From NCBI GenBank assembly GCA_902781455.1, contig CACZJF010000007.1, positions 1 to 64,000 of the forward strand: DNA of 64,000 bases, in the 5' to 3' direction. Below the pieces are notes generated by a model, which saw only the letters and a program-made list of their open reading frames with translations, had not been told where the DNA came from and did no database searches. The translations under genes were made by a program, and so were the position numbers. This document shows positions 490 through 57,571 of the stretch, piece after piece. Positions within the stretch are counted from its first letter, which is position 1. Each line of letters opens with the position of its first letter. The DNA is from an uncultured Lachnospiraceae bacterium (GTDB lineage Bacteria; Bacillota; Clostridia; Lachnospirales; Lachnospiraceae).

Positions 490-812
490 GTGTCATTCCT
501 CCTGATTAATGCTTTGTCTTTAAACTGGGATACGCGCGAGGCACGCATCCAGCTGCATCCCCTTTCAGAGCCTGCAGCCTTTCCGTCTCATTAAGCGGAT
601 GCCTTTTCAGCCACCGCAAATGTGTAGGCCGCGCCGCAGCGGTTGTCGGCGGGTGTTGCTGCACGAAATCCTGAGCCGGTATTAAGGACAATATTACTTT
701 GAGCCTGTCCTGCATCCGCAGGCTGTCAGCTTTTATCGTATATTGTCAGCGGCTTTGAAGCCGCATTCCGCTTCTCATTGAATAGGATTCTCATCCTGTC
801 GGCTGTCTGTGA
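490..812 (-). other. Intergenic stretch between rpmJ remnant and rpsM
   Basis: No convincing gene is seen in these 323 bases. On the minus strand there is a small hairpin with arms GCGGCTT/AAGCCGC at about 744-759 and a second weak pairing (AGCCTG/CAGGCT) just downstream. A 69-codon open frame at 506-715 has no ribosome site and no recognisable features. The stretch is transcribed as operon leader or spacer between rpmJ and rpsM; any regulatory role is unknown. Confidence 0.5.
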
Positions 813-35462: not shown

Positions 35463-35491
35463 TAAAAACAGCGAGACGAGTCTCGCTGTTT
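35463..35491 (-). terminator. Terminator after the ANTAR gene
   Basis: Arms AACAGCGAGAC/GTCTCGCTGTT with a two- to four-base loop, followed on the minus strand by TTTTTATGTTTTT. About 50 bases past the ANTAR stop. Confidence 0.9.
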
Positions 35492-35540: not shown

Positions 35541-36131
35541 TTACTCTTCATACTCTTCCAGAATCCGCTGTGCGATCCGCTTTCTGGATACGCCGTGATT
35601 CATTGCCTGCTTTCCGATCAGACGGTGCGCTTCATCCTCAGACAGGTGTCTGTGTTCGATCAGAAGGAATTTCGCTTTGTCTACCAGGCGGACCTCCTGC
35701 ACCTTCTCCTCCGCTGCAAGGATTCTTTGTTCCGCCTCTCTCAGCTTTGCCTGCTGCGCTGACAAAAAACGCATCGCGTGTGTGATGCGCGGCAGGGGGA
35801 ATGGCTTCGCGAGAACCAGGATACCGGCGTCCGTGACACGGTCCAGCGTATCTTCATAAACTCCGTCCGGTACGATCAGCAGTACGGAGGCGCCACACTC
35901 CCTTGCCGTATCAAGCGCAAGTTCTGTCCCCGCCCCGTCCGGGAGAGGTGCATTCACAACCACGATACTGTAGTACCGTTCCAGAATACACCGCCGGGCC
36001 GCTGCTGCGCTGGTCCGGTATTCTACTGACGCGGCAGACAATCCTGCCAGTGACTTTTTGATCAGCGGAAAGAATCTCTCCTCCGCGGACACTGTCAGTA
36101 TGGAATGCTGGAACTGTTCTGCTCTGGACAT
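35541..36131 (-). CDS. ANTAR-domain RNA-binding antiterminator with pseudo-receiver
   Basis: 196 residues. Residues 1-125 have a receiver fold, but the phosphorylation position reads VVVNAPLPDG, Asn instead of Asp, so normal phosphorylation is unlikely. A helix (about 122-140) leads to an ANTAR domain (about 140-195) with LLIEHRHLSEDEAHRLIGKQ and a conserved-looking C-terminal helix. ANTAR proteins (AmiR, NasR, EutV) bind paired hexaloop hairpins in leader RNA and prevent termination. It lies 73 bases after the GS-like gene. Candidate targets are the dapL and asnB leaders in this same window. Confidence 0.9.
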   Translation of the reverse strand: MSRAEQFQHSILTVSAEERFFPLIKKSLAGLSAASVEYRTSAAAARRCILERYYSIVVVNAPLPDGAGTELALDTARECGASVLLIVPDGVYEDTLDRVTDAGILVLAKPFPLPRITHAMRFLSAQQAKLREAEQRILAAEEKVQEVRLVDKAKFLLIEHRHLSEDEAHRLIGKQAMNHGVSRKRIAQRILEEYEE

Positions 36132-36204: not shown

Positions 36205-37383
36205 TCACTCCCTGCCGCAGTACACCCGGAGAATCTCCTCCGGAATGATCTGTCTGACAAATGCACTTCCCATCGCGATCTTTCCTGCCTCCCTCCTGGA
36301 CGAAGGAAGCAGGTCCGCCTGCTGTGTCATCTCTTCCGGAAGAGACAGCTTCCGCTCTATTCCGGACAGCCCTGCATAAATCAGGAGCGCGTAAACCAGA
36401 TACGGGTTTCCGGACGCATCGGGAGAGCGCAGCTCCACACGGGTCTTCCCGTTAAATGTCTCGATATACATCAGCTCCGACTTTCCTTCCCGCGACCAGT
36501 CTGCCCGGTCCGGTGCCGTGCTGCTGCCCAGTCTTGAATAGGAGTCGTCTGTCGGATTCAGGAAGATCGTAATGTCCCGGATTACTTCCATGATTCCTGC
36601 AGCCGCCTGAATCGCCACATCTTCCCCTGCCTCATTCACCGCATACAGGTTGATATGATAGCCATTTCCCGGCTGATCCGGAAGCGGCATCGGAGAAAAG
36701 TCCGCATACAGTCCGTGCCGGTCGGCAATTGTCCGGACCGCCATCTTAAACGTGGTAATCTGGTCGGCAGCCTTGAGCGGCTTCGCGTAATGAAAATCAA
36801 TCTCATTCTGCCCCGGTCCCCGTTCATGATGGGACCGTTCCGGCGTCAGGCCCATCCGCTCGATTGTCAGATTGATCTCGCGCCGGATGTTCTCACACTT
36901 GTCGGCAGGGGCGATGTCGAGATAGCCGGCACGGTCATAGGGAATCTTTGTTTCCCGGCCTTCTTCATCCATCAGGAAAAGATAGAATTCACTCTCAATG
37001 CTGAAGCGGAACTCTACGCCCGCCTCCCTTGCCCGCGCTGCTGCCTTTCGCAGAATGTCTCTCGTGTCACAGGCATACACCTCTCCGTCCGGCGTGCAGA
37101 CATCGCAGAACATGCGCAGCACCTTCCCGCTCTCCGAGCGCCAGGGCAGAATCGTCAGCGTGGCAGGATCCGGTTTCAGGTAAAGAGAAGCATACGGACT
37201 GTCCGCGAATCCTGCGATTTCCCTGGCATTGATCGGCATGCCATGGTCGAAAGCTTTCTTCACCTCACCCGGCATAACAGCAATGTTTTTCTGGACACCA
37301 AACGCATCACGAAACGCAAGACGCACAAATCTGACATCCTCTTCCTCGATCTGATTCAGCACTTCATCGGTTGTATAGCTCAT
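36205..37383 (-). CDS. Glutamine synthetase family protein, shortened
   Basis: 392 residues, about 50 fewer than usual type I enzymes. The beta-grasp N-domain (about 1-95) and catalytic domain are clear: FRFSIESEFYLFL carries metal Glu residues, GPGQNEIDFHYA and GNGYHINLY further ligands. The usual glutamate-binding motif (W-S-x-x-N-R-S) is altered to WSREGKSELMYI, and the downstream RxExR-like motif reads TRVELRSPDASGNPYL. No adenylylation loop is evident. It may be a glutamine synthetase or a gamma-glutamyl-amine ligase. GAGGG precedes the ATG. It lies between glmS and the ANTAR gene. Confidence 0.85.
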   Translation of the reverse strand: MSYTTDEVLNQIEEEDVRFVRLAFRDAFGVQKNIAVMPGEVKKAFDHGMPINAREIAGFADSPYASLYLKPDPATLTILPWRSESGKVLRMFCDVCTPDGEVYACDTRDILRKAAARAREAGVEFRFSIESEFYLFLMDEEGRETKIPYDRAGYLDIAPADKCENIRREINLTIERMGLTPERSHHERGPGQNEIDFHYAKPLKAADQITTFKMAVRTIADRHGLYADFSPMPLPDQPGNGYHINLYAVNEAGEDVAIQAAAGIMEVIRDITIFLNPTDDSYSRLGSSTAPDRADWSREGKSELMYIETFNGKTRVELRSPDASGNPYLVYALLIYAGLSGIERKLSLPEEMTQQADLLPSSRREAGKIAMGSAFVRQIIPEEILRVYCGRE

Positions 37384-37472: not shown

Positions 37473-39341
37473 TTATTCTACCGTAACACTCTTGGCCAGG
37501 TTTCTCGGCTTATCCACATCCAGGCCTTTGGCGACACTGATATAATATCCCAGCAGCTGCAGCGGAACAACCGCAAGAATCCCTGAAAAATGCTCTTCCG
37601 TGGGCGGAATCCGGATCACGAAGTCCAGGCTGCCGGAAACCGCTTCCTTCTCCGAGTCTGTGATCCCGATCAGGTACGCGCCTCTGGCCTTGCATTCCTT
37701 CATGTTACTGATGGTTTTCTCCAGGAGCCTTTTCTGCGTCAGCACGCCGATCACGGGAGTACGTTCCTCGATCAGGCTGATGGTTCCATGCTTCAGTTCC
37801 CCTGCCGCGTAGGCTTCACTGTGTATATAAGTGATCTCCTTCAGCTTCAGGCTGCCTTCCATGCTGATCGCGTAATCCGCTCCTCTGCCGATAAAGAATG
37901 CATCCTTCGCGTTCGCGTATTTCGAGGCGAACCACTGGATCCTTTCCTGTTCCAGCAAGAGTCTTCCGATCTTACCCGGAATAGATCTTAATTCCTGTAT
38001 GCAGGAGTGGTACATTTCTTCCTCCAGTCTGCCCTTGACATAGGCAAGCCTGACAGCGAACAGATACATCAGCATCAGCTGGGAGGAAAATGCCTTCGTG
38101 GTGGCAACCGCGATCTCCGGGCCTGCCTTGGTGTAGAGCACATGATCCGCCTCGCGGGCAATGCTGGATCCTTCCACATTCACGATACCAAGCGTCCGGA
38201 TCCCTTTCTCCTTCGCGATGCGCAGTGCTTCCAGACTGTCCGCGGTCTCCCCTGACTGGGAGATCACGATGGCAAGTGTATTCCGGGCAGGAAGAATCCT
38301 GCGGTAGCGGAATTCCGACGCAAGCTCTACCCTGACCGGAATCTGCGCCATATCTTCCAGCACATACTGGGCTGTCATTCCCACATGCCATGCGGAACCG
38401 CAGGCAACGATGCAGACTGATTCCGTCTTACGGAGCAGGTCATCATCAATTCCCGCATCCTGAAAACTGATCTCCCCCTCTTTCAGAACACTTTCCAAGG
38501 TGTTTTCTGCCGCCTGAGGCTGCTCATGAATCTCCTTCATCATGAAGTGCTCATAACCGTTCTTTTCCGCGCCTGCCACATCCCAGGTCACCTCAGATTG
38601 CGGAATGGTAATCTCATCTCCGTTCAGGTCAAAGAAATGAACCTCCCCCGGCAGCAGCCTTGCCGCCTGATGGTTTCCAATGTAGTACACCTTTCTGGTA
38701 TAATTCAGCATCGCTGTCACATCAGAAGCCAGGAAAGTTTCGTCCCCGGACACGCCGATGATCATCGGGCTGTCTTTCCTCGCCGCATAGATCTCTCCGG
38801 GGTAATCGCGGAACATCAGCGCGAGGGCATAGCTCCCCCGGACTCTGACCATCATACGGTTGATCGCGTCGATCGGTCCGATCTTGTACTTGTTGTAATA
38901 ATAGTCAACAATCTTGATCGCGACCTCTGTGTCCGTGTCGCTGTAGAATTCATACCCGTGCCGCAGGAGCTTTTCTTTCAGCTCCTCGTAGTTTTCGATA
39001 ATTCCATTGTGCACCCCGATCACATCGGAAGTCGAGTAATCTGACTGCTCCTCCTGAAAAGCGCCGCTGATATGCGGATGCGCGTTCCTTTCATTCGGCT
39101 CCCCGTGCGTTGCCCATCTGGTATGGCCGATCCCGCAGTGTCCGGGCAGCACGCTTCCCTGCTCTGTCCGTTCCACCAGATGATGAATCTTCCCCATCGC
39201 CTTCGCCAGCCTGACGGTGCCATCTTCATCAAGGACAGCCATCCCCGCTGAATCATATCCTCTGTACTCCAGCTTTCCGAGCCCTTCCAGCAAAAGCCCG
39301 GCTGCCTGCCTGTGTCCGGTATATCCTACGATTCCACACAT
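37473..39341 (-). CDS. glmS: Glutamine-fructose-6-phosphate aminotransferase
   Basis: 622 residues. MCGIVGYTG at the start gives the N-terminal nucleophile Cys2 of the class II amidotransferase domain (about 2-235; GHTRWATHG also present), followed by two SIS sugar-isomerase domains with VACGSAWHVG, ISQSGETADS and the C-terminal DKPRNLAKSVTVE. It makes glucosamine-6-phosphate from glutamine and fructose-6-phosphate for peptidoglycan. GGGAGA precedes the ATG. The upstream 207 bases hold no glmS ribozyme that I can recognise, only a small hairpin (GGCTGCC/GGCAGCC) before the ribosome site. Confidence 0.97.
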   Translation of the reverse strand: MCGIVGYTGHRQAAGLLLEGLGKLEYRGYDSAGMAVLDEDGTVRLAKAMGKIHHLVERTEQGSVLPGHCGIGHTRWATHGEPNERNAHPHISGAFQEEQSDYSTSDVIGVHNGIIENYEELKEKLLRHGYEFYSDTDTEVAIKIVDYYYNKYKIGPIDAINRMMVRVRGSYALALMFRDYPGEIYAARKDSPMIIGVSGDETFLASDVTAMLNYTRKVYYIGNHQAARLLPGEVHFFDLNGDEITIPQSEVTWDVAGAEKNGYEHFMMKEIHEQPQAAENTLESVLKEGEISFQDAGIDDDLLRKTESVCIVACGSAWHVGMTAQYVLEDMAQIPVRVELASEFRYRRILPARNTLAIVISQSGETADSLEALRIAKEKGIRTLGIVNVEGSSIAREADHVLYTKAGPEIAVATTKAFSSQLMLMYLFAVRLAYVKGRLEEEMYHSCIQELRSIPGKIGRLLLEQERIQWFASKYANAKDAFFIGRGADYAISMEGSLKLKEITYIHSEAYAAGELKHGTISLIEERTPVIGVLTQKRLLEKTISNMKECKARGAYLIGITDSEKEAVSGSLDFVIRIPPTEEHFSGILAVVPLQLLGYYISVAKGLDVDKPRNLAKSVTVE

Positions 39342-39548: not shown

Positions 39549-42391
<2,843 letters not shown>

Positions 42392-42487
42392 ATCCACGTC
42401 CTTTCTGGATGATTCTCCGCATCGTCCTCAGGTTTCTCGTTCGTCAAAGACGGTCTGTCTTCAGGAACGGCAGCGGCCATCTTCCAA

Positions 42488-42528
42488 TAAAGAAAGGCGC
42501 TTCGGGTCAACAAATAACCCGAAGCGCC
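42488..42528 (-). terminator. Leader terminator of dapL-pyrG
   Basis: Arms GGCGCTTCGGGT (5' arm at 42517-42528) and ACCCGAAGCGCC (42496-42507) with a nine-base loop, followed on the minus strand by TTTCTTTATT. It lies between the dapL promoter and the dapL start, so it acts as an attenuator unless an alternative fold forms. It could also end gltBD transcripts. Confidence 0.88.
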
Positions 42529-42582
42529 ATTGCTTCCGTTAAAACCTGAACATAAGCTGTTTCGATATCGCCTTTGATATCG
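42521..42582 (-). promoter_or_regulatory. Candidate ANTAR-binding RNA (two hexaloop hairpins) in the dapL leader
   Basis: Hairpin P1 has stem CGATATC/GATATCG (42576-42582 with 42563-42569) and hexaloop AAAGGC (42570-42575). After a 26-base linker, P2 has stem GAAGC/GCTTC (42532-42536 with 42521-42525) and hexaloop AATGGC (42526-42531). Both loops have A at position 1 and G at position 4, as in the ANTAR target described for EutV/NasR leaders. P2 shares bases 42521-42528 with the 5' arm of the terminator, so the two structures exclude each other. Confidence 0.75.
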
Positions 42583-42587
42583 TCCCA

Positions 42588-42617
42588 ACTATAAATCAGG
42601 TTGATTTCGGATGTCAA
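42588..42617 (-). promoter_or_regulatory. Promoter of dapL-pyrG
   Basis: TTGACA (42612-42617, perfect) and TATAGT (42588-42593) with an 18-base spacer on the minus strand. The predicted transcription start falls at the 5' edge of hairpin P1. Confidence 0.8.
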
Positions 42618-42650: not shown

Positions 42651-42846
42651 TCAGGCCTCCGGCAGCCGTCCCCCAGCCGGGCACCATGAGCAGGAGCGTC
42701 GACGGGATCCACTGCTTACGAAGACTTAGCAGCCGGGGTATGAAGAAATCGTTCGCTGAATACCCCGGCTGCTTAGTCGCAGTTGGCAGTTAGCCCGGCG
42801 GGAGCGGGCTTTGGTGTCTCGCGGGGGACGGGCTGCCGGAGGCTGA
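42651..42846. repeat. Nested palindromic element between gltD and dapL
   Basis: Outer arms: GCCTCCGGCAGCC followed by GTCCCCC at 42654-42674 pair with GGGGGAC followed by GGCTGCCGGAGGC at 42822-42844 (one bulge). Inner arms AGCAGCCGGGGTAT (42728-42741) and ATACCCCGGCTGCT (42760-42773) pair perfectly around an 18-base loop. No open frame of note lies inside. It contains CACCATGAGCAGGAGCGTC (42682-42700), a 19-base string that recurs exactly at 53137-53155. It may be a non-autonomous mobile element or a REP-like unit. Confidence 0.75.
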
Positions 42847-42885: not shown

Positions 42886-44370
42886 TCAGAGATTCGAATA
42901 CCCCATCAGTGCTTCGTCCACCTCCCTGGCCGCGTTTCTCCCTTCCGCGATTGCCCAGACGACCAGGGACTGTCCGCGGTGCATGTCTCCCGCGGTATAG
43001 ACACCTTTCCTGTCTGTCAGGTGTTTCCCCGGCTCGGTTCTGACATTCGTTCTGGCATCTGTGGAAACCGAAAAGCTGTCCGTCACATAGCGCTCACTTC
43101 CCAGAAACCCGGCTGCGATCAGGACCAGAGAGGCCCTGACTTTCTTTTCGCTGCCTTCCACAGGAACCATCTTCAACCTTCCGGTTTTCTCATCTTTTAC
43201 CGGCTGCAGGCTAATCAGAACTGCTTCTTTCAAGCGTCCCTTCTGATCCTTCCTGAATTCCTTTACCGTTGTCTGGTAGATCCGCGGATCAGAGCCGTAT
43301 TTCCAGATGGCTTCTTCCTGGCCGTAATCCACCTTCAGGATCCTGGGCCATTCCGGCCATGGATTGGAAGCCGGCCTTTCCTTCGGCGGCTGCGGCATCA
43401 TCTCCAGCTGTGTGACGCGCTTCGCTCCCAGCCGGATGCAGGTGCCGACGCAGTCATTTCCGGTGTCCCCGCCTCCGATCACGATGACCTCTTTTCCTTT
43501 GACCAGCTCATCCGGAGATTCCTGAAAGTCCGTATCCAGCAGTCTCTTTGTGACCATTCCCAGAAAATCAACCGCGAAGAAGATCCCCTTCGCGTCCCGT
43601 CCCGGCACATTGATGTCCCTGGGATTGGAGGCGCCGCAGGCAAGAATGACACTGTCATATGCGTCTGTCAGGCTGGAGGCCGGAACATCTTTTCCAACAT
43701 CAACGCCTGTTAAGAATCGGACACCTGCCTCTTCCATCAGGCGGATCCGTCTGTCGATCACGGACTTGTCCAGCTTCATGTTCGGAATCCCGTATCGCAG
43801 CAGTCCGCCAATCCGGTCTTTTCTTTCATAGACTGTCACCTCATGTCCCCTGCGGTTCAGAAGATCCGCCGCCGCAAGTCCTGAAGGACCGCTTCCCACG
43901 ACAGCGACCCGCTTCCCGGTGCGCACAGCAGGTTTTCCACCCTGCACCAGCCCCTGCTCATAGGCGAATTCAATCACCTCTTTTTCATTTTCCTTTGTAC
44001 CAACAGGCGCGTCATGCACGCCGCAGGTGCAGGCCGCCTCACACAGCGCAGGGCATACCCGGCTGGTAAACTCCGGAAAACTGTGCGTGACGGTCAGTCT
44101 CCGGTACGCTTCCTCCAGCCTTCCCTGTGCCACTAGTCCATTGATCTCCGGAACAAGGTTGTGGAGCGGGCACCCTGAAGCCATGCCTGCAATCATCGTC
44201 CCGTTCTGGCAGAAAGGAACACCGCAGTTCATACATCTTTCGGCCTGTTCCTGCCTGGGCTTCGCAGGAAGTCTCAGATGGAATTCCTGAAAATCCTTCA
44301 GCCGCTCTTCCTCACACCGCACAGGTCCATCGACCCTCTTATATTCCAGAAAACCCGCTCTCGTACTCAT
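42886..44370 (-). CDS. gltD: Glutamate synthase small subunit
   Basis: 494 residues from the ATG at 44368-44370 (GGAGAG upstream). The N-terminal Cys motifs for Fe-S clusters are seen in CMNCGVPFCQNG and GCPLHN, with CPALCEAACTCG further on. FAD- and NADPH-binding motifs follow: VAVVGSGPSGLAAADLLNRR and VIVIGGGDTGNDC. It passes electrons from NAD(P)H to GltB for reductive formation of two glutamates from glutamine and 2-oxoglutarate. It starts 109 bases after the gltB stop. Confidence 0.96.
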   Translation of the reverse strand: MSTRAGFLEYKRVDGPVRCEEERLKDFQEFHLRLPAKPRQEQAERCMNCGVPFCQNGTMIAGMASGCPLHNLVPEINGLVAQGRLEEAYRRLTVTHSFPEFTSRVCPALCEAACTCGVHDAPVGTKENEKEVIEFAYEQGLVQGGKPAVRTGKRVAVVGSGPSGLAAADLLNRRGHEVTVYERKDRIGGLLRYGIPNMKLDKSVIDRRIRLMEEAGVRFLTGVDVGKDVPASSLTDAYDSVILACGASNPRDINVPGRDAKGIFFAVDFLGMVTKRLLDTDFQESPDELVKGKEVIVIGGGDTGNDCVGTCIRLGAKRVTQLEMMPQPPKERPASNPWPEWPRILKVDYGQEEAIWKYGSDPRIYQTTVKEFRKDQKGRLKEAVLISLQPVKDEKTGRLKMVPVEGSEKKVRASLVLIAAGFLGSERYVTDSFSVSTDARTNVRTEPGKHLTDRKGVYTAGDMHRGQSLVVWAIAEGRNAAREVDEALMGYSNL

Positions 44371-44479
44371 AGAACTCTCCATGCCTTTTCCAGTTTATTT
44401 CCGGTACCTTCACTCGTTCGCTGACAAAACACCAGATCCTGTCACACGATTTTTCGTCGTTCTCATCAGCATTCCTGTC

Positions 44480-47400
44480 TCAATCCTGCTCACCTTTCTG
44501 GCTGCCGGCGAAGATCCGGAATGCTTCCAGTTTTGCCGTCTCCGGGTCAGCCCCATGCTCCTCGCTCCTGGCGATCAGCCGCAGGATCTCCTTGTAATCG
44601 GTCGGTATGATCTTTTTGAACCGTGGAATGTACGCTTCAAACCGGTCCAGGATCTCCTGTCCTTTGCCGGATCCGGTCAGCTGCACATGGCGCTGAATCA
44701 TACGGTGAAGTTCTTCTTTTTCCGCAGCGGTTTCTACGCTTTCCATCCGGACCATCTGTTTGTTCAGGTTCCTGTACAGACGGTTTTCTTCGTCCAGCAC
44801 ATAGGCGCAGCCTCCGCTCATGCCTGCCGCGAAGTTTTTCCCTACCTTTCCGAGGATCACCACGCGGCCGCCGGTCATATATTCGCAGCCATGCTCCCCG
44901 ACGCCTTCGACCACGCAGGTCGCCCCGGAATTGCGGATGGCGAACCGCTCTCCGGCCATACCGGCGATGTAAGCCTCTCCGGACGTGGCACCGTACAGGG
45001 CAACATTCCCGATGAGGATATTCTCATGCGGATCATAGGAAGCGTTGTCCGGCGCATGGACGACAAGCTTTCCGCCTGACAGGCCTTTTCCGAAATAGTC
45101 ATTGCTGTCGCCTGTCAGACAGATCGTCAGTCCTGCCGGGATAAATGCGCCGAAGCTCTGGCCGCCGCTTCCCGTGCAGCCGATTGTAATGGTATCCTCC
45201 GGCAGGCCTTCCGGATGTCTTCTGGTGATCTCCGCGCCGAGCAGTGTGCCGAAGGTTCTGTCCGTATTATCCACCCGGACCTGGATGCCGGACTTTTTCT
45301 GCCGGCTCAGCGACTGCCGGATTCCCTGGTCTGCAAGGAGAATCTTCTCGTCTTTTGTCTCCTGCAGCCGGAAATCATACTGACGCTTCGGGTTAAATGT
45401 CATTTCCTCCCTGTCCCGTGCAGGCGGATCCGGCAGAATCGATTTCAGGTCAAGAAGCTTCTGCTTCCCGGACAGGTCATCTCTTACCTTCAGAAGGTCG
45501 CTTCTTCCTGTCAGTTCTTTCACCGTCCTGACACCGAGAGACGCCATGATCTCCCGCAGCTGTCTGGCGATAAAGCGCATGAAGTTCTCGACATACTCCG
45601 GTTTCCCGGAGAACCGCTTTCTCAGGACAGGATCCTGCGTGGCCACTCCCATGGGACAGGTATCCGACTGACATTCCCGCATCATGACGCAGCCCATTGT
45701 GATCAGAGGCGCTGTCGCGAATCCAAACTCCTCCGCTCCGAGGATCGCCGCGATAGCGACATCCCGGCCGCTCATCAGCTTTCCGTCCGTCTCGATGACA
45801 ACCTGGCTGCGCAGGCCGTTTGCCAGCAGTGTCTGATGCGTCTCCGCAAGACCGAGCTCCCAGGGAAGACCTGCGTTGTGGATCGAGGACAGCGGCGCTG
45901 CCCCGGTTCCTCCGTCGTAGCCGGAGATCAGGATTACGCCTGCGCCGGCTTTCGCCACACCGGCCGCCACGGTTCCTACCCCGGCTTCCGACACCAGCTT
46001 GACAGAGATACGGGCCTCTTTGTTCGCGTTCTTCAGGTCATAGATCAGCTGTGCCAGGTCTTCGATGGAATAGATATCGTGATGCGGCGGAGGCGAAATC
46101 AGGCTGACACCCGGTGTGGAGTGTCTTGTCTTCGCGATCCAGGGATATACCTTCTTCCCGGGCAGGTGACCCCCTTCTCCGGGCTTGGCCCCCTGTGCCA
46201 TCTTGATCTGGATCTCCTTCGCGCTGACCAGGTACCTGCTGGTCACACCGAAACGCCCGCTCGCCACCTGTTTGATGGCCGAGCTGCGGTCATTTTCGGT
46301 TCCGGCAGACAGAATCCGCTCCTCACTCTCTCCGCCTTCTCCGCTGTTCGACTTTCCGTGCAGACGGTTCATGGCAATGGCGAGTGTCTGATGGGCTTCC
46401 TCTGAAATGGATCCATAGGACATGGCACCGGTCTTAAAGCGCCTGATAATCTCCTCCTCCGGCTCTACCTCATCGAGCGGTACCCCCTCAGCCGGCATCG
46501 CAAACTCCAGCAGGCTTCTCAGATAGCCCGTCTGCTCCGCGTCCACCATCTGCGTGTACCGGCAGAACTTCTCATAGTCACCTTCCCGTGTGGCACTCTG
46601 CAGCATATGGATCGTCTGTGGCTGATACCTGTGATGTTCTCCCTGCGCCCTTCTCTTATGCCGTCCCGCGGAGGTCAGTTCCAGGTTGACATACAGCCCC
46701 AGCGGGTCAAATGCGCGGCTGTGCTGCATGTCCGCCGCTTTTCCGATGTCTTCCAGGCTGATCCCGCCGACCCGGCTGACCGTTCCCGTGAAGTAATCCC
46801 TGATGACGTCCTCTGATATACCGATCGCCTCGAAGATCTTGCTGCCCTGATACGACTGTATCGTCGAGATCCCCATCTTGGAAGCAATCTTGACAATGCC
46901 GAACAAGACCGCGCAGTCATAGTCGTCCACAGCGGCATAATAATCCTTGTCCAGCAATTCCTTTTTTACCAGTTCAGCGATCGTGGCATGCGCCAGATAC
47001 GGGTTCACCGCGGACGCACCATAACCGAGCAGGGTCGCGAAATGATGTACCTCTCTTGGCTCGGCAGATTCCAGGATCAGGGACATGGCAGTACATTTCT
47101 TCGTATCCACCAGATGCTTGTGTACCGCGGCCACCGCCAGCAGGGACGGGATTGCCACATGGTTTTCATCGACGCCTCTGTCGGACAGGATCAGGATATT
47201 GGTCCCCTGTCTGTATGCCTTGTCCACCTCCACAAACAGATGCGGGATCACACGCTGCATGGGTGTTCCCTTATAGAACAAAGTGGAGACCTTCGAAACC
47301 CGGAATCCCTCCTTTTTCAAGTCTTCAATCTTGAGAAGATCCAGATCTGACAGGATCGGATTCTCAATCTTGAGAACATGGCAGTTTTCTTCCTTTTCGT

Positions 47401-49051
47401 CCAGAAGATTGCCGTTTTTGCCCAGATATACGGTGCGGGAGGTCACAATCTCCTCCCTCTGCGCGTCGATCGGTGGATTCGTCACCTGCGCGAAGAGCTG
47501 TTTGAAATAGTAGAACAGGGGCTGATACATCCCGGACAGGACGGCCAGCGGCGTGTCCACACCCATCGAGCCGATCTGCTCTGTCCCTGTGAGCGCCATC
47601 GTACGGATGCCATCATGGCAGTTCTCCCAGGTATAGCCGAATGCTTTCTGCAGACGCGCAAGCTTCTCTCCCTGCAGGGAAGGAACCCTTCTGTTCGGAA
47701 TTTTCAGGTCGGACAGGTGCAGCAGGTTGGAATCCAACCATTCGCCGAAGGGCTGTGCCTTGGCGTACTGCTCCTTGATCTCCTCATCACTGATGATTCT
47801 GCCTTCTTTCGTATCCACCAGGAGAATCTTGCCCGGATGCAGCCGCTCCTTTCTCAGGATATGTTCCTCCGGAAGGTCAAGTACGCCGACCTCGGAAGAA
47901 AGAATCAGCCTTCCGTCATCCATTACATAATAGCGGGACGGACGCAGACCGTTCCGGTCCAGAATTGCCCCCACCACGTCACCGTCGGAAAACAGGATCG
48001 ATGCCGGACCGTCCCACGGTTCCATCATCGTCGCGTAATACTGATAGAAATCCCGCTCCTCCTGGGACAGCGTTTCGTTGTGCGTCCATGGCTCCGGCAG
48101 CAGGATCATGGCCGCAAGCGGAAGCGGCATGCCGCTCATCATCAGAAACTCCAGCGTGTTGTCCAGCATCGCAGAGTCCGATCCGTTCTCGCTGATCACC
48201 GGGAGCACTTTGGTCATGTCTTCTTCTGAAAACCTGTCTGTATAAAGCGTTTCCTCCCTGGCCAGCATCTTGTCCACATTTCCCTTGATCGTATTGATCT
48301 CACCGTTATGAACAATCAGGCGGTTGGGGTGTGCACGCATCCAGCTTGGCATGGTGTTGGTCGAAAACCTGGAGTGAACGACAGCGATTGCGGACCGGTA
48401 ATCCGGGTCGGCAAGGTCCGTGAAGAAGGTCCGGAGCTGCCCGACCAGAAACATGCCCTTATAGACGATCGTCCTGCAGGACAGGGACGGGACATAAGTC
48501 TCCACATTGCTCTGTTCGAATTCCCTGCGGACGATATACAGCTTCCGGTCAAAGTCAATGTCCTGAGGTGTGTCGTCCGGCCGGGCGATAAAAACCTGAC
48601 AAATGCGGGGCATGCATTCCCGCGCCCGGGAACCCAGCACCGACGGATCCGAGTCCACCTGGCGCCAGCCCAGAATAGACAGGCCGGCCTTCCGTGTAAT
48701 GACCTCGAACATGGACCTGGCCTGGCGCATTTTCAGCTCATCCTGCGGAAAGAAGAACATACCGACGCCATACCGGCGCTCAGCAGGAAGTTCGATCCCT
48801 CCCTGCGCCATCTTCTTTACAAAAAAGTCGTGCGGAATCTGCGTGAGGATCCCGACGCCGTCGCCGGTTTTCCCCTCCGCGTCCTTCCCCGCCCTGTGGT
48901 CCAGATGCTCCACGATCGAAAGGGCATCGCTGACAAGCTGATGGCTTTTCCGGCCCTTGATATCGATGATGGCTCCGATCCCGCAGTTGTCATGCTCGAA
49001 GGTAGGATCGTAGAGTCCCCTGTTTCTGATTGCTTCGAACCGGTCTGTCAT
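44480..49051 (-). CDS. gltB: Glutamate synthase large subunit
   Basis: 1523 residues from the ATG at 49049-49051 (GGGAGG upstream). The class II amidotransferase domain begins at the Cys in FEHDNCGIGA, after a short propeptide of about 22 residues, as in bacterial GltB. The central domain, the FMN-binding synthase domain (SAKEIQIKMAQGAKPGEGGH, ISGYDGGTGAAPLSS, with the Cys cluster in MMRECQSDTCPMGVATQ) and the C-terminal GXGXG beta-helix domain are all present. It splits glutamine and channels ammonia to 2-oxoglutarate. Lies 81 bases after the GSIII stop. Confidence 0.97.
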   Translation of the reverse strand: MTDRFEAIRNRGLYDPTFEHDNCGIGAIIDIKGRKSHQLVSDALSIVEHLDHRAGKDAEGKTGDGVGILTQIPHDFFVKKMAQGGIELPAERRYGVGMFFFPQDELKMRQARSMFEVITRKAGLSILGWRQVDSDPSVLGSRARECMPRICQVFIARPDDTPQDIDFDRKLYIVRREFEQSNVETYVPSLSCRTIVYKGMFLVGQLRTFFTDLADPDYRSAIAVVHSRFSTNTMPSWMRAHPNRLIVHNGEINTIKGNVDKMLAREETLYTDRFSEEDMTKVLPVISENGSDSAMLDNTLEFLMMSGMPLPLAAMILLPEPWTHNETLSQEERDFYQYYATMMEPWDGPASILFSDGDVVGAILDRNGLRPSRYYVMDDGRLILSSEVGVLDLPEEHILRKERLHPGKILLVDTKEGRIISDEEIKEQYAKAQPFGEWLDSNLLHLSDLKIPNRRVPSLQGEKLARLQKAFGYTWENCHDGIRTMALTGTEQIGSMGVDTPLAVLSGMYQPLFYYFKQLFAQVTNPPIDAQREEIVTSRTVYLGKNGNLLDEKEENCHVLKIENPILSDLDLLKIEDLKKEGFRVSKVSTLFYKGTPMQRVIPHLFVEVDKAYRQGTNILILSDRGVDENHVAIPSLLAVAAVHKHLVDTKKCTAMSLILESAEPREVHHFATLLGYGASAVNPYLAHATIAELVKKELLDKDYYAAVDDYDCAVLFGIVKIASKMGISTIQSYQGSKIFEAIGISEDVIRDYFTGTVSRVGGISLEDIGKAADMQHSRAFDPLGLYVNLELTSAGRHKRRAQGEHHRYQPQTIHMLQSATREGDYEKFCRYTQMVDAEQTGYLRSLLEFAMPAEGVPLDEVEPEEEIIRRFKTGAMSYGSISEEAHQTLAIAMNRLHGKSNSGEGGESEERILSAGTENDRSSAIKQVASGRFGVTSRYLVSAKEIQIKMAQGAKPGEGGHLPGKKVYPWIAKTRHSTPGVSLISPPPHHDIYSIEDLAQLIYDLKNANKEARISVKLVSEAGVGTVAAGVAKAGAGVILISGYDGGTGAAPLSSIHNAGLPWELGLAETHQTLLANGLRSQVVIETDGKLMSGRDVAIAAILGAEEFGFATAPLITMGCVMMRECQSDTCPMGVATQDPVLRKRFSGKPEYVENFMRFIARQLREIMASLGVRTVKELTGRSDLLKVRDDLSGKQKLLDLKSILPDPPARDREEMTFNPKRQYDFRLQETKDEKILLADQGIRQSLSRQKKSGIQVRVDNTDRTFGTLLGAEITRRHPEGLPEDTITIGCTGSGGQSFGAFIPAGLTICLTGDSNDYFGKGLSGGKLVVHAPDNASYDPHENILIGNVALYGATSGEAYIAGMAGERFAIRNSGATCVVEGVGEHGCEYMTGGRVVILGKVGKNFAAGMSGGCAYVLDEENRLYRNLNKQMVRMESVETAAEKEELHRMIQRHVQLTGSGKGQEILDRFEAYIPRFKKIIPTDYKEILRLIARSEEHGADPETAKLEAFRIFAGSQKGEQD

Positions 49052-49082
49052 GGCATACCTCCCAGGTGCTTTCGTCAAATCA

Positions 49083-49132: not shown

Positions 49133-51232
49133 TCAGTACACGGAAAACAGCAGCTTTCCATAACTCGGGAACGGCCAGCTCTTCTCAGGCATCAGCATCT
49201 CCGCTTCGTCAACATGCTTTCTCAGATGCTCCATCTTGGGAAGCACATCGTCCCGGATCATCTCCGACGTTTTCGGGATGTCCTCCATTCCCTTCAGATC
49301 TTCCAGTGCCTTCTCGAGATCCTTCACCCGCTCCAGTATGTAATCCGTCAGTTCCGAGAGCCGCTCCATCGTCGAAACCTCATAGTTGCACTTCACACGG
49401 TCGCTGACGGACCGCATCGCACCGATGGTATTTGCAAGACTGTACAGGTATTCCTCGATGGCCGGAAGGTAATTCTTGCGAACCATATCCACCATGGTAT
49501 GCCCTTCAATGTTGACAGTCTTGCAGTAATTCTCCAGCATAATCTCACATCTGGAGTGAAGCTCTGTTTCCGTAAAGACCTTGTGTTCCATCAGCATGGC
49601 CATGTTCTGTGGATCCAGCAGATGCGGCATGGCGTCCGCGGTGGTCTTCAGATTCGAAAGTCCTCTGACCTTCGTTGCCTCCTCGACCCACTCTTCGCCG
49701 TATCCGTTTCCGTTGAACAGGATTCTCTCATGCTTCTGAATGGTTTCGCGGATCAGTTCATGCAGCTCTCCCTCAAAATTCTTCGCACCTTCGAGCCGGT
49801 CCGCGTACTGCTTCAGGCTCTCGGCAACGGCAGCGTTCAGCATGATGTTGCAGCAGGCGATGCTGTTGGAAGAGCCCAGGGAGCGGAACTCGAACTTGTT
49901 GCCGGTAAATGCAAAGGGCGATGTGCGGTTGCGGTCCGTCGTATCCCTGGAGAACCTGGGCAGGGCGTGAACCCCCAGCTTCATGGTGACCCTCTCGGTT
50001 CCTGCATACGGGACATCGTTCTTGATTGCCTCCAGGATGGCAGTCAGCTCATCACCCAGGAACACGGATATGATGGCAGGCGGTGCTTCGTTCGCGCCCA
50101 GCCTGTGGTCATTTCCGGCGGTGGCTACGGACAGTCTCAGAAGATCCTGATAATCGTCCACTGCCTGGATCACAGCGCACAGAAACAGCAGAAACTGTGC
50201 GTTCTCATGCGGTGTATCACCGGGTGACAGAAGGTTGACGCCCTCGTCGGTTGCCATCGACCAGTTGTTGTGCTTGCCGGATCCGTTCACACCGGCGAAA
50301 GGCTTCTCGTGCAGCAGGCAGGCCAGTCCATGCTTCGCCGCTACCTTCCTCATGATCTCCATCGTCAGCTGGTTCTTGTCTGTCGCCACATTCGTAGTGG
50401 AGAAGATCGGAGCCAGCTCATGCTGCGCCGGAGCGACCTCGTTGTGCTCGGTCTTTGCCAGGATTCCCAGCTTCCACAGTTCTGTATTCAGGTCCTCCAT
50501 ATACGCGATGACCCTGGGCTTGATCGCGCCGAAATAATGATCATCCAGCTCCTGTCCCTTGGGCGGCATCGCACCGAACAGCGTCCGGCCGGTATAGACC
50601 AGGTCCGGCCTTTTCTGGAACATCTCCCGGTCGATCAGGAAGTATTCCTGCTCCGGCCCGACAGAGGTCCTCACGTTCTTTACTTCCTTGCCGAACAGCT
50701 TCAGGATCCGCTTCGCCTGCCGGTTCAGCGCCTGCATGGAGCGCAGCAGCGGCGTCTTCTTATCCAGCGCGTCTCCCGCGTAGGAACAGAACGCAGTCGG
50801 AATACACAGCGTGTGATCCTTGATAAACGCGTAGGACGTGGGATCCCACGCCGTATAGCCTCTGGCTTCAAACGTAGCCCGAAGACCGCCCGACGGGAAG
50901 GACGACGCGTCCGGCTCTCCCTTGATCAGCTCCTTGCCGCTGAACTCCATGATCACACCGCCGTCCGGAGAAGGTGTGATAAACCCATCATGCTTCTCTG
51001 CCGTCACGCCTGTCAGCGGCTGGAACCAGTGGGTAAAGTGCGTCGCGCCATTCTCTACGGCCCAGTCCCGCATCTCGCTGGCAACCGCCTGCGCGATATC
51101 CTGCTGCAGCGGCGCATTTTCATCAATCGTCTTTCTGAGAGACTGGTACACGTCCGCGGACAGTCTCGCGCGCATCACCCTGTCATCAAACACCATGGAA
51201 CCAAACAATTCCGGTACATTCATCTTTGCCAT
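49133..51232 (-). CDS. glnN: Type III glutamine synthetase
   Basis: 699 residues from the ATG at 51230-51232 (GGAGGGG upstream), the length of GSIII enzymes and far longer than types I and II. Motifs: [15 protein letters not shown] at the N-terminus, [14 protein letters not shown] and [18 protein letters not shown] with metal Glu/His ligands, [13 protein letters not shown] and [14 protein letters not shown]. It makes glutamine from glutamate, ammonia and ATP. It starts 19 bases after asnB stops and is followed by gltB, so asnB-glnN-gltB-gltD form one nitrogen-assimilation unit. Confidence 0.97.
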
Positions 51233-51251
51233 CACAATCCCCTCCTTCTTC

Positions 51252-52904
51252 TCACACACCGCTGTCGCCGTAGTTTGCCAGCACTCTCGCTGACGGATCC
51301 GTTACATTGCAGCCCTCCCAGTTCCTGTTCGGCATCCAGAAATCCACCACCATCTCCGACTGCCCCGGATAGTGTTTTTCAAAGATATCCCTGTAAAGCA
51401 GCGATTCCTTCGTAAATGGTCTCGCATGGGTGTACTGTCGGATCCGCTCTTCATACACCTCATCCGGATACAGCTGCTCCGCGTACTCCACGATGTCATC
51501 TGTCAGCGAATGTCCTACCGCGTCAGAAAAAGCTGCCTTCTCTCTCCAGAGAATGGATTCCGGGATCAGGCCATCCTGTTCAAATGCATGCCGGAGCAGA
51601 TACTTTCCTTTTCCATACCGGTTCAGCTTTTTCTCCGGATCAATGGACATACAGTATTCCACAAAGTCCAGATCCCCGAAGGGCACTCTTGCCTCCAGAG
51701 AGTTGACGCTGATGCAGCGGTCCGCACGCAGGACATCGTACATATGGATCTCCCGGATCCTTTTCTCGGCCTCCTTCTGGAATTCCTCCGCGGAGGGAGC
51801 AAAGTCGGTGTATTTGTACCCAAAGATTTCATCCGAGATCTCACCGGTCAGTATGACCCGCAGATCAGACTGTTCATGGATGGCCTTGCATACCAGATAC
51901 ATGCCGATCGAAGCGCGGATGGTGGTAATGTCATAGGTGCCAAGTGCCTCGATCACCGGATCCAGCGCGTCCAGCACATCCTGTTTTGTGATGATCACCT
52001 CATGATGGTTCGAGTGAATATAGTCTGCCACCTGCCTTGCGTACTTCAGATCGATCGCGTCCACATCCATGCCGATCGCCCAGGTCTCAAGCGGCTTGTC
52101 CAGAAGGCTTGCCGCAATTCCGCACACCAGGGAGGAATCCAGCCCGCCGGAAAGAAGAAACCCAACAGGGGTATCGGAATCCAGTCTCTTTCTGACACCC
52201 TGAAACAGAAGATCATGGATGTTCTCGTCTGTCATCAGCAGGTCATCTTCATGGTAAGCCGGAACCTCTGACATATCGCGGTATCTGACAAATGCGCCAT
52301 CCTTGAAATAATGCCCGGGCGGAAATGGTCTGATCCCGCTGACCAGTCCGACCAGATTCTTCGGCTCAGAAGCAAATACAAAGGTTCCGTCCCGGCAGAT
52401 CCCGTAATACAGCGGCCGGATCCCGATCGGGTCTCTCGCCGCGATCCATCTGTCCTGTACTCTGTCATAAAGGACCAGGGCAAATTCCGCGTCCAGCATT
52501 CGGAACATTTCCGTCCCATACTCTTTGTAGAGCGCCGGCAGGATCTCGCAGTCAGAGCCGCTGATGAACTGATATCCTTTCTGAAGCAGGTCCTCCCTGA
52601 TCTTCCGGAATCCGTAGATTTCACCGTTGCATGCAAGGACGATCTCACTGTCATCGGGAACACAGTACCCCATTTCCGTTTCCGACAGTTCAGATGCCAG
52701 ACAGGTGGTCCGGTTTCGATAGACAAAAGGCTGCATCCCTTCATCCGTGGTTCCCATGATGGACAGCCGGTTGAAACCGATCCATCCATTTCCTGTGTCC
52801 ACGGTCCTGGTGTCATCCGGTCCTCTGGAAACTGTTCTTTTCAGAGCTTCCTGCAGAGCCGGCCAGTCACCGTCTTTGCTGCAATAACCCATGATCGAAC
52901 ACAT
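51252..52904 (-). CDS. asnB: Asparagine synthetase (glutamine-hydrolysing)
   Basis: 550 residues from the ATG at 52902-52904 (AGGAGG upstream). MCSIMGYCS gives the N-terminal nucleophile Cys2 of the class II glutaminase domain (with GFNRLSIMG and ACNGEIYGF). The synthetase domain has the PP-loop [13 protein letters not shown] and [14 protein letters not shown]. It makes asparagine from aspartate, glutamine and ATP. It is the first gene of the asnB-glnN-gltBD unit, with a promoter and terminator-containing leader upstream. Confidence 0.96.
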
Positions 52905-53002
52905 AGCGCACCTCCTGTCTTCATGCTCAGGTCTGATATCCGGCAACCTTCTGCGTTCAAACCGCACCTGTGTCAGCCGCAGTCTTGAATCTGCCGGAAA
53001 AA

Positions 53003-53049
53003 CAAAAAGACAAAGGCGTCAGGGAATTGCTCCCTAGACGCCTTTGTCT
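53003..53049 (-). terminator. Leader terminator of asnB
   Basis: A long hairpin whose outer arms AGACAAAGGCGTC (53037-53049) and its complement (53008-53020) enclose a second stem AGGGA/TCCCT with one bulged base. On the minus strand it runs into TTTTTGTTTTT. It starts within a few bases of the predicted transcription start, so asnB-glnN-gltBD messages must pass it. Confidence 0.9.
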
Positions 53050-53050
53050 A
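53035..53050 (-). promoter_or_regulatory. Hexaloop hairpin overlapping the asnB leader terminator
   Basis: Stem TAGAC/GTCTA with hexaloop AAAGGC (53040-53045), the same loop as P1 in the dapL leader, with A at position 1 and G at position 4. All its bases except the outermost lie in the 5' arm of the terminator, so the two folds exclude each other. A second matching hexaloop is not seen. Confidence 0.55.
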
Positions 53051-53058
53051 TGTGATGC

Positions 53059-53087
53059 ATGATAACCAGTCTATATTCAATTGTCAA
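53059..53087 (-). promoter_or_regulatory. Promoter of asnB-glnN-gltBD
   Basis: TTGACA (53082-53087, perfect) and TATCAT (53059-53064) exactly 17 bases apart on the minus strand. Predicted start near 53052. Confidence 0.85.
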
Positions 53088-53157: not shown

Positions 53158-55338
53158 TTACTGCTGCCTTTTCACCAGCTCCGCAAAAAAACCGCCCTGC
53201 CTGATCAGTTCATCATATGTTCCACTTTCAACAATCTTTCCCTGATCCAGCGCAATGATTCTGTCGCACGCCTGAATCGTGGACAGACGGTGAGCGATCA
53301 CGATGCGGGTGCACTTCATCGCATCCATGGAATCCGTCACGATTTTCTGGGTAAGATTGTCCAGCGCGCTGGTCGCTTCATCCAGAATCAGAACCCCCGG
53401 CCGGGGCGCGATTGCCCGCGCGATCATAATCCTCTGTTTCTGTCCGCCGGAAAGACCTTCTCCGCCTTCCCCCAGATACGTATGCATGCCCAGCGGCATC
53501 TTCCGGATATCCTCTGCGATACCGGCTTTCTCAGCCGCCTCCCACGCTTCATCCATCCCAAGCCACGGGGCGCTGATTGTGATATTGGAATAAAGATCTC
53601 CCGCGAACAGTCTGCCGTCCTGCAGAACGGTTCCGATATTCCGCCGCAGAGAATACAGGTCCAGGTCTCTCATATCATTTCCATCATAGGATATGGTTCC
53701 CCGGTCCGGCTGCTCGAATCCAAGCAGAAGCTTCACCAGGGTTGATTTCCCGCAGCCGCTTCTTCCGACAACTGCCACGTATTCCCCCGGGGAAATGAGC
53801 AGGCTCAGGTTGTCCAGAATCGCCGGCTCGTCCTTTTCGTACCGGAACGTGACATGCTTCAGTTCTATGCTTCCGTTCAGTCCAAAGACTGGTTTTCCTT
53901 CCCTCGAAGACTCAGGCACTGCCTCCAGAATCGGTTTTCCTGTGTCCAGAATCGGTTTCAGCCTGGAGATGCTTCTGCTGTGGTTTGCCACCTGGTCGAT
54001 ACAGGACAGCGCGACTCCAAACGCAGAAGTAAACGCAGCCAGCTGGGCAACAGACAGAGAATACTTCCAGGAAAGAGCAAATGCCCACAAAAGCCCCAGA
54101 AGGCGTACCGTTGTAATCAGTTCGCTCCTGACACAAAGAGGAAAACGGACCGCAAACGTGGCACCGGTCTTTCTGGAATACGTCCGCAGCCATTTTGCGT
54201 AAGCACGCTGCTCACTTCCGCTGACCCGCAGCCGCTCGATCCCGGAAATCAGCCCGTACACAAGGCCGCTGTTTTCTTCGGCACAGGTCATCTCCCTCCA
54301 GAAAAGCCTGGTCTCCTGCAGCATACTGACCAAAACCAGAGCCAGAGCCGTGAAAAGACAAACCACGGCCGGGGCAGCAAGCTGTGACGCGATGAAGAAG
54401 ATCGGTATGACACTGACAAATGAAATCAGAATATTGGTCAGCATCATCAGTATGTCACCGATGATCTTCGGCAGTTTGTTCAGGGATGAAACCTTCTGTG
54501 CAACTGCGCCTGATGTACGGTTTTTAAAGAAGGATGCCGGCAGATTAATGATACGGGCGTAGACGCTGTTTTCCAGCACCAGGTCGAGCCGGTTCTGTAT
54601 CCTGAGGTTGAGCGCAAAGCGGGAGGAACCCATCAGATAACTGCACCCTGCAGACGTCACAAGCAGAACGAACAGCGAGATCAGCATGCCGGCCTTCTGT
54701 GACGGGACAATCTGGGAAAAGGCAATCTGCGTCACATAGGTCGGAAGCGTTCCGATCACCGCCAGAAGGAACGATGAAACCACATACATGGCCAGATCAC
54801 TGGTTCTGATTCTGCGCAGCATAAACAGCAGAAAATCCTTTCCCGACAACGGCTTCGCCGGCAGAGGACGGTAGAAACAAAATGCCTCCTTTTCAAACAG
54901 TTCCTGCTCTTTTCGGGTGATCCTGATCTTCTGATTTGTCTGGCTGTCTCTGTAACAGTAGCCCCTGAAGGTATCCGGAAACAGCGCCAGAACCTGCTCC
55001 GTGTCCGTGTTCTTCCTCCTGACCAGGATCGGCGCGTCACCATCCTTCCACCAGGGCCCGTCCAGCAGGATGCTTCTTTTCATGATCCCCGTCGGATGCA
55101 GAACCAGATCAATCAATTCCGGCAGTGCCTCCCCGGAGGACTGGCAGGGAGGGACATCCAGCCCAAAATACGCCGCGATACGCTCGATCTGCCGCAGATT
55201 GTCAGACTCCGTCTGAATGGATTCATCAAAAGAGACGCTCCTGCTGCTGACTGTGTCTGCCAGTCTGCGTTCATTTTTCCGGACGGACCTAAGGTCCTGC
55301 TCCATTCGTTCTTTCAGCTGTTCTCCGTAATAACCCAT
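53158..55338 (-). CDS. NHLM-type bacteriocin export ABC transporter (no peptidase)
   Basis: 726 residues: an N-terminal cytosolic region of about 190 residues unlike C39, six membrane segments (about 205-430) and an ATPase domain with VGRSGCGKSTLVKLL, LSGGQKQRI and VLILDEATSALD. The layout and partners match the second ABC protein of NHLM (nitrile-hydratase-leader microcin) secretion systems. GGGGGAG precedes the ATG. It lies 14 bases after the partner ABC gene and is the last gene of the unit. Likely forms a complex with that protein and the HlyD-like protein. Confidence 0.85.
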   Translation of the reverse strand: MGYYGEQLKERMEQDLRSVRKNERRLADTVSSRSVSFDESIQTESDNLRQIERIAAYFGLDVPPCQSSGEALPELIDLVLHPTGIMKRSILLDGPWWKDGDAPILVRRKNTDTEQVLALFPDTFRGYCYRDSQTNQKIRITRKEQELFEKEAFCFYRPLPAKPLSGKDFLLFMLRRIRTSDLAMYVVSSFLLAVIGTLPTYVTQIAFSQIVPSQKAGMLISLFVLLVTSAGCSYLMGSSRFALNLRIQNRLDLVLENSVYARIINLPASFFKNRTSGAVAQKVSSLNKLPKIIGDILMMLTNILISFVSVIPIFFIASQLAAPAVVCLFTALALVLVSMLQETRLFWREMTCAEENSGLVYGLISGIERLRVSGSEQRAYAKWLRTYSRKTGATFAVRFPLCVRSELITTVRLLGLLWAFALSWKYSLSVAQLAAFTSAFGVALSCIDQVANHSRSISRLKPILDTGKPILEAVPESSREGKPVFGLNGSIELKHVTFRYEKDEPAILDNLSLLISPGEYVAVVGRSGCGKSTLVKLLLGFEQPDRGTISYDGNDMRDLDLYSLRRNIGTVLQDGRLFAGDLYSNITISAPWLGMDEAWEAAEKAGIAEDIRKMPLGMHTYLGEGGEGLSGGQKQRIMIARAIAPRPGVLILDEATSALDNLTQKIVTDSMDAMKCTRIVIAHRLSTIQACDRIIALDQGKIVESGTYDELIRQGGFFAELVKRQQ

Positions 55339-55352
55339 ATCACATCTCCCCC

Positions 55353-57512: not shown

Positions 57513-57571
57513 CTGCCCTCTTCCTCCTCTGAAAAACGATTCCTTCCATCTTGCTGCATCCGGTTTCCCTG

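Follow-up and report, generated by a model that had tools for sequence, protein, structure and literature searches.

Does the leader that precedes dapL and pyrG in a gut-type clostridial bacterium answer to an ANTAR protein, and does it tie the two genes to nitrogen? The question arises from a stretch of 64,000 nucleotides, called here the window, which belongs to a genome of 2.39 Mb (81% complete) whose nearest named relatives are mostly Lachnospiraceae. A preliminary description had ascribed to this leader the two-hexaloop architecture of an ANTAR antitermination target, had proposed that the ANTAR protein encoded nearby acts on it, and had regarded such control of dapL and pyrG as unusual.

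The dapL leader carries two hexaloops and an overlapping terminator

The promoter, hairpin P1 with loop AAAGGC, the 26-base linker and hairpin P2 with loop AATGGC described previously are all present on the minus strand (Table 1), and the 5' arm of the terminator does include the P2 bases 42521-42528. Both loops have six bases with A1 and G4, both stems exceed the threshold of at least 3 bp, and P2 overlaps an intrinsic terminator. The terminator stem (42528-42496) comprises 14 bp, reaches -26.9 kcal/mol when folded alone (shuffle z -7.3) and takes up the loop and the 3' arm of P2. In the minimum-energy fold of the 95-nt leader starting at P1, P1 and the terminator are kept and the 5' arm of P2 pairs with the linker; when the leader is cut ahead of the 3' arm of the terminator, P1 and P2 fold, together with a weak linker hairpin. 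The pairing between the linker and the 5' arm of P2 (42532-42562) is possibly an extra element opposing P2.

The leader is followed by the run dapL-pyrG-glmS-glnA-ANTAR, which ends with the ANTAR gene. A second attenuator, with a single hexaloop (53050-53003), heads asnB-glnN-gltB-gltD, and its fold (53002-53054) reaches -31 kcal/mol (z -9.2). Only two promoter-like sites matching the consensus at 11/12 positions occur between 35.0 and 53.2 kb, each directly before a hexaloop. Since both promoters precede a hexaloop and a terminator, the entire nitrogen cluster probably stands behind these two attenuators, and each gene run is presumably one transcript. The name glnN (type III) for the gene at 49133..51259 is our assumption from its length and sequence, and the naming of 42886..44382 as gltD, the glutamate synthase small subunit, follows from its place after gltB.

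Table 1. Positions of the leader elements and genes of the nitrogen cluster in the window.
Feature	Position	Strand	Remarks
Promoter TTGACA-18-TATAGT	42588..42617	minus	11/12 consensus matches
P1 hairpin cgatatc-AAAGGC-gatatcg	42563..42582	minus	7 bp; A1 and G4; predicted transcript start
Linker	42537..42562	minus	26 nt
P2 antiterminator hairpin gaagc-AATGGC-gcttc	42521..42536	minus	5 bp; A1 and G4
Intrinsic terminator and T tract	42486..42528	minus	5' arm overlaps P2 at 42521-42528
dapL, LL-diaminopimelate aminotransferase	41177..42397	minus	TIGR03542, 1.9e-176
pyrG, CTP synthase (glutamine amidotransferase)	39549..41144	minus	Pfam CTP_synth_N and GATase
glmS-type protein	37473..39341	minus	glutamine amidotransferase and SIS domains (Pfam)
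glnA-type glutamine synthetase	36205..37383	minus	Pfam Gln-synt_C, 7.4e-63; under NCBIfam equivalog cut-off
ANTAR regulator	35541..36131	minus	receiver-like fold; Asn60 at phospho-Asp position
Terminator-like hairpin after ANTAR gene	35466..35491	minus	likely unit end
asnB-leader promoter TTGACA-17-TATCAT	53059..53087	minus	11/12
asnB-leader single hexaloop hairpin tagac-AAAGGC-gtcta	53035..53050	minus	
Terminator overlapping asnB-leader hexaloop	53003..53049	minus	
asnB, asparagine synthase B	51252..52967	minus	NF006949, 1.5e-174; profile match from residue 22
glnN-like large glutamine synthetase	49133..51259	minus	708 aa; weak partial NCBIfam glutamine synthetase matches
gltB, glutamate synthase large subunit	44480..49078	minus	NF008730
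gltD-like oxidoreductase	42886..44382	minus	Pfam Fer4_20 and Pyr_redox_2

At the gathering score, no riboswitch, T-box or other Rfam family matches the dapL or the asnB leader, and a known family was rejected as an identity for these leaders; a search over 12 loci returned one chance-level match, away from the leader. The sole gathering-score Rfam match in the window is an S4-Clostridia ribosomal protein leader at 520-583 (minus strand). Two neighbouring stretches are recorded as separate observations. The interval between gltD and the dapL promoter contains a palindromic interspersed element (42655-42843) with nested inverted repeats of 31-32 nt; it resembles MITE or REP elements, and other parts of the genome hold incomplete copies with identities of 96% and 94%, alongside more diverged ones of about 80%. 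On the minus strand at 53158-57575 lie two adjacent ABC-exporter-like genes, one of which (55353-57575) has a peptidase-like N-terminus; these names were given by eye.

Dual and single hexaloops in related leaders

A strict scan for two A1/G4 hexaloops, with stems of at least 4 pairs and overlapping a terminator, was run over loci L001-L133 (1.56 Mb, both strands). Its sole find was the dapL leader, in the window copy L112. The homologous leader of the same-genus genome G008 was overlooked, we believe because of one mismatch in P2. The strict scan for dapL leaders with two hexaloops gave 0 of 80 named loci, and looser scans, then the single-hexaloop class, were therefore pursued.

Three genomes of the same genus also have dual-hexaloop leaders: that of G008 precedes dapL, and those of G010 and G013 precede gltB. 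In the two gltB leaders P1 lies, by eye, about 5 nt past a -10-like box. The P1 loops of the three leaders are AATGGC, AAGGGC and AAAGGC. Across the four dual leaders, that of the window included, A1 and G4 are kept in both loops. The inner five base pairs of P1 do not vary, and the one beyond them is G-C, G-C, A-G (unpaired) and A-U. The G008 leader has lost the outermost P1 pair and carries an A-C mismatch in P2, also inside its terminator; an A-G mismatch occurs in P1 of the G013 gltB leader. Both dapL leaders with two hexaloops, from the window and from G008, contain the linker word CAGCTTAT, which is absent from the two gltB leaders.

A single hexaloop overlapping a terminator was found in the dapL leaders of G002 (L113), L034 (the same contig as G013), L037, L038, L039 and L091. 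The expectation that both loops are conserved in close relatives was thus borne out by G008, G010 and G013, but not by the dapL leaders of G002 and G013, which are single although they come from the same genus. Tandem hexaloop-terminator units were seen in L226 (1655-1846; G010) and L196 (1743-1846; G059), where they precede an ammonium-transporter-like gene and a glnN-like gene.

A class of single-hexaloop leaders in Clostridia

When single A1/G4 hexaloops that overlap a terminator were sought, many matches appeared, most of them before nitrogen genes. A covariance model, R1, was built from 31 seeds among 53 scan matches, selected with a pairing filter and partly by the downstream gene, so that the seeds lean to known nitrogen genes. 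The other matches were 14 that we set aside (P1 copies and leaders of odd or unrecognised genes, including dapF and ammonium transporter leaders recognised later), 7 with long spacers and 1 without a terminator in the short context. Searching the fetched DNA with R1 yielded 137 distinct matches, up to 31 of which are seeds or copies of seeds; they remained from 143 rows after 6 with identical first 45 bases were removed. For the relatives, a search under stricter filters, in which a part of the matches was listed, contributed 60 of the listed matches (E up to 0.00275) and 29 new loci; related genomes are counted separately, and the counts are not independent events. The loops of the 137 matches are AAAGGC in 86, AAGGGC in 24, AATGGC in 13, AACGGC in 6, AAGGGT in 4 and others in 4.

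Stem covariation over 97 distinct rows scored 0.586, compared to 0.274 in shuffles, with 84.9% of cells paired. Because seeds and matches lean to pairing, a separate test, free of any pairing or terminator filter, used the window together with 100 loci that had been retrieved either through dapL or from the surroundings of ANTAR genes. Where the word CAANGGYG, which was learned from the same loci as those tested, lies just past a promoter, it is flanked by at least 3 further pairs in 44 of 50 cases, compared to 38 of 402 elsewhere; a T run follows in 39/50 and 67/402, respectively. R1 itself contains no promoter, and a -10 box lies 1-9 nt ahead of the model in 92 of the 137 matches (108 of 2740 random positions). 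This placement leaves no room for an upstream hairpin in these 92 leaders, provided that the promoter is correctly assigned.

An upstream hexaloop candidate was seen in 13 of the 137 matches. With stems of at least 4 pairs, a second hexaloop is present upstream in 14/137 (9.9 in shuffled sequences) and in the terminator region in 7 (5.2); with at least 5 pairs the counts are 9 (3.8) and 2 (1.9), and with at least 3 pairs 38 (24.9) and 21 (12.1), a mild excess. A hidden second hexaloop, being near chance at stems of at least 4, is not the rule and was rejected as a general explanation of the single form, though it may exist in some leaders. In most leaders found, several dapL leaders included, a single hexaloop lies at the predicted start of the transcript. 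The two-hexaloop architecture of the dapL leader in the window is real, but it is a minority form among the leaders found.

These findings bear on whether P1 is mere decoration, P2 and the terminator alone being what matters and the dual form not a functional unit. This is possible, though we consider it doubtful. It agrees with the prevalence of one hexaloop in related leaders, the six dapL leaders included, and with a linker longer than the range given in excerpts on the eut leaders; it fits poorly with the retention of P1 in four leaders, where A1 and G4 are fixed and one pair shows a compensatory change.

Specificity of the motif within the genome

In the genome of the window, R1 finds the asnB leader (8.1e-5) and P2 of the dapL leader (1.6e-4), both of which are seeds of the model, and nothing else below 0.9. 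For a second model, R2, the window and its closest kin (L032, L034, L035) were withheld. Over the 2.39 Mb it places the dapL leader first (E 0.035) and the asnB leader (53045) second (E 0.32); these E-values are modest and the rank is the point. The first rank of the dapL leader genome-wide, together with the result of the strict scan, confirms that the observation is more than chance.

The motif precedes genes of ammonium assimilation and amidotransfer

Five of the 137 matches are not followed within 600 nt by an ORF of 90 aa. Among the remaining 132, the downstream gene encodes glutamine synthetase in 61, and is asnB in 13, the ammonium transporter gene amtB in 10, gltB in 8, dapL in 8, purF in 6, pyrG in 4, dapF in 3 and a GlnQ-like ABC gene in 2; 110 of the 132 precede glutamine synthetase, asnB, amtB, gltB, dapL, purF or pyrG. 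Two ORFs without an NCBIfam match were read by us as carrying a glutamine amidotransferase domain, and guaA, asnA, purB, carA and nifH occur once each, nifH behind a single-hexaloop motif in L237 (1801-1858; G092). Ten others do not obviously fit. These assignments rest on profile scans of ten group representatives, nine of which matched, the other members being placed by BLAST clustering alone. Judged from this gene list, dapL and pyrG are ordinary members of a set devoted to aminotransfer, amidotransfer and ammonium assimilation. Control of these two genes by an ANTAR protein would accordingly not be unusual within this set, contrary to what had been supposed, as the element is found in the dapL, dapF, pyrG, purF, guaA and carA leaders of relatives.

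The motif tracks ANTAR genes

The presence of the motif was compared with that of ANTAR genes (PF03861) in 98 relatives, 71 of them of high quality (completeness of 90% or more, contamination of 5% or less). With R1 at E 0.01, the motif was found in 47 of the 57 high-quality relatives with an ANTAR gene and in 0 of the 14 without; at E 0.1 the figures were 51/57 and 1/14. In all 98 relatives at E 0.01, they were 58/72 and 4/26. The four motif-bearing relatives without an ANTAR gene (G001, G002, G014, G064) are 73-88% complete, so that its absence is uncertain. Class-wide, among 283 high-quality genomes out of 293, the motif is present in 90 of 148 with an ANTAR gene and in 10 of 135 without (Fisher p 1.8e-22); phylogeny is ignored in these statistics as in those for the relatives. 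This leaves 58 high-quality ANTAR genomes without the motif at E 0.01. The ten genomes with the motif (E at most 0.01) and no PF03861 match (G130, G135, G197, G270, G278, G310, G340, G342, G350, G356) may reflect chance matches, missed genes or another reader protein. The three genomes of family f2 and the two of family f22 either have both ANTAR gene and motif or have neither, and the motif is missing in 2 of 3 ANTAR genomes of family f5. In 58 genomes with both, they lie at most 20 kb apart in 29 and at most 10 kb apart in 24, with an expectation of about 0.7 within 10 kb if genomes are 3 Mb.

Could another factor, either an RNA-binding protein or a small ligand, bind the hairpins while ANTAR genes merely travel with nitrogen clusters? 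We consider this improbable. It would accommodate the 10 of 100 motif genomes in which no ANTAR gene was found, the 58 ANTAR genomes lacking the motif and, as far as their incomplete assemblies allow, the four relatives. However, high-quality relatives without an ANTAR gene are devoid of the motif at E 0.01 and carry it once at E 0.1, the two go together in f2 and f22, the leaders searched have no Rfam match, and A1/G4 hexaloops with a P2-terminator overlap are the published determinants of ANTAR targets. Hardly credible is the view that the element only ends transcription of the preceding gltD-like gene, its hairpins being fortuitous and nothing being regulated: such a gene does precede it on this strand, followed by a strong terminator, but an 11/12 promoter separates the gene from that terminator, the same dual layout precedes gltB in two relatives, and the motif ranks first genome-wide under a model made without it.

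The ANTAR protein resembles EutV but has an altered receiver

The gene at 35541..36131 is the sole PF03861 match (4.1e-14) in its own, 81% complete genome. The model of its product (pLDDT 91.8) is closest in fold to EutV (6wsh, 2.4e-10; RNA-bound 6ww6, TM 0.75), and the best sequence match among solved structures is Rv1626 (1s8n, 9.3e-9). The RNA-contact residues of EutV were taken from excerpts of PMC8934654 and mapped with a chain numbering that we infer to be the paper number plus 2. In our reading of the alignment, the equivalents of E160, K147, K149, M172 and N173 are kept, R142, R168, R175 and R177 are changed, K143 is replaced by Arg and Tyr164 by His, the latter position being His in 74 of 86 aligned rows.

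The phosphorylatable Asp of the receiver is missing, Asn60 being found instead. Across the 86 rows this position is G in 35, N in 21 and D in 9, five of the latter being OmpR-type outliers. As the receiver-like domain lacks this residue, input through a phosphorelay appears unlikely, and the protein more probably responds to a bound protein or ligand; from the gene neighbourhood, glutamine synthetase may be guessed as a partner. Combined, the dual homologues, the co-occurrence and proximity of ANTAR genes, the one ANTAR gene found in the genome, which lies downstream in the dapL gene run, and the EutV-like fold support the proposal that the dapL-pyrG leader is tied to nitrogen through an ANTAR protein.

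Discussion

We conclude that the dapL leader is very probably an ANTAR-controlled transcription attenuator of a nitrogen regulon. The promoter, the hairpins and their mutually exclusive folds, the conservation, the co-occurrence with ANTAR genes and the target genes are read from sequence, and from them we infer the binding of the ANTAR protein, the direction of control, the signal and the single transcript of each gene run. RNA polymerase would start at P1. With nothing bound, the stronger hairpin (42528-42496) would form and transcription would stop before dapL. Upon nitrogen limitation, the presumed signal, the ANTAR protein, itself a product of this gene run, would bind the A1/G4 hexaloops as they emerge and hold P2 folded, so that the P2 loop and 3' arm would be withheld from the terminator and the polymerase would read into dapL-pyrG-glmS-glnA-ANTAR. 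The sister attenuator with one hexaloop would act likewise on asnB-glnN-gltB-gltD.

Beyond this locus, we lean towards the view that Clostridia possess widespread natural single-hexaloop ANTAR antiterminators, with a C-AANGGY-G hairpin at the first transcribed bases. Part of the hairpin would be the terminator 5' arm, the reader ANTAR proteins would have receivers mostly without the phosphorylatable Asp, and the regulon would comprise ammonium assimilation, glutamine-dependent nucleotide and asparagine synthesis and the formation of diaminopimelate, a cell-wall precursor. If this is so, the need for two hexaloops seen with EutV does not apply to all ANTAR systems, and the dual dapL leader would represent this switch in a derived or supplemented state. 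Current models do not expect a one-hairpin form to work. The 137 matches, mostly before clostridial nitrogen genes and tracking ANTAR, make the single-hexaloop question directly testable, and they offer many clostridia a possible route by which nucleotide, asparagine and diaminopimelate synthesis is tied to nitrogen supply.

Comparison with known systems

Among the papers that the literature searches listed, none reports that an ANTAR protein controls dapL or pyrG, or that nitrogen genes are preceded by attenuators with a single hexaloop. The main text of a premature-terminator paper contains none of the sought terms (PMC2965389), and NmPAL, described as a photoreceptor binding small RNA hairpins (PMC11381354), was set aside.

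In EutV work, deletion of P1 abolishes induction, a 14-nt linker impairs it and eut linkers span 5-12 nt (PMC3369931; PMC8934654), whereas the linker is called variable in the published general model of ANTAR targets. A single hexaloop is described as the minimal binding site and two as obligatory for antitermination, and further bioinformatic and experimental work on single hexaloops is urged (PMC8934654). The window system resembles EutV/eut of Enterococcus faecalis in its REC-ANTAR protein, its two A1/G4 hexaloops and the P2-terminator overlap, EutV being also the nearest solved fold. It differs by its 26-nt linker, outside the eut range although a short linker is not family-defining, by a receiver without the phospho-Asp, by several changed RNA-contact residues and by the single hexaloop of many related leaders. 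Its targets serve nitrogen assimilation, amidotransfer and lysine synthesis, in contrast to ethanolamine use in eut.

NitR of Clostridium saccharobutylicum, for which the source study is reportedly that of Stutz in 2007, is likely the same kind of regulator as the window ANTAR protein. The window has an ANTAR gene beside GS/GOGAT genes with motif leaders, as expected of a NitR-type system, NitR itself being known here by description only. In that description, it controls GS/GOGAT genes by ANTAR antitermination on nitrogen limitation (PMC6316151); the extension to dapL, pyrG and purF seen in clostridial leaders is missing from the passage on NitR. In Desulfotomaculum, predicted ANTAR regulons include several targets before glutamate synthase and other nitrogen genes (PMC3369931). 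They are like those of the window in being several per genome and at nitrogen genes but, unlike the single-hexaloop class, were found using a dual-hairpin model.

NasR/nasF and AmiR/amiE share ANTAR antitermination and A1/G4 hexaloops with the window system, AmiR aligning also by fold, and differ in their sensors and target genes (PMC3369931). Rv1626 of Mycobacterium tuberculosis combines ANTAR with a receiver-like domain as the window protein does, whose modelled fold is however nearer to EutV. Control of nitrogen genes by ANTAR proteins is already known (PMC3369931, PMC6316151); the features that appear to be new are the long linker of this leader, the class of single-hexaloop leaders around it and a regulon that extends to genes for lysine and nucleotide synthesis.
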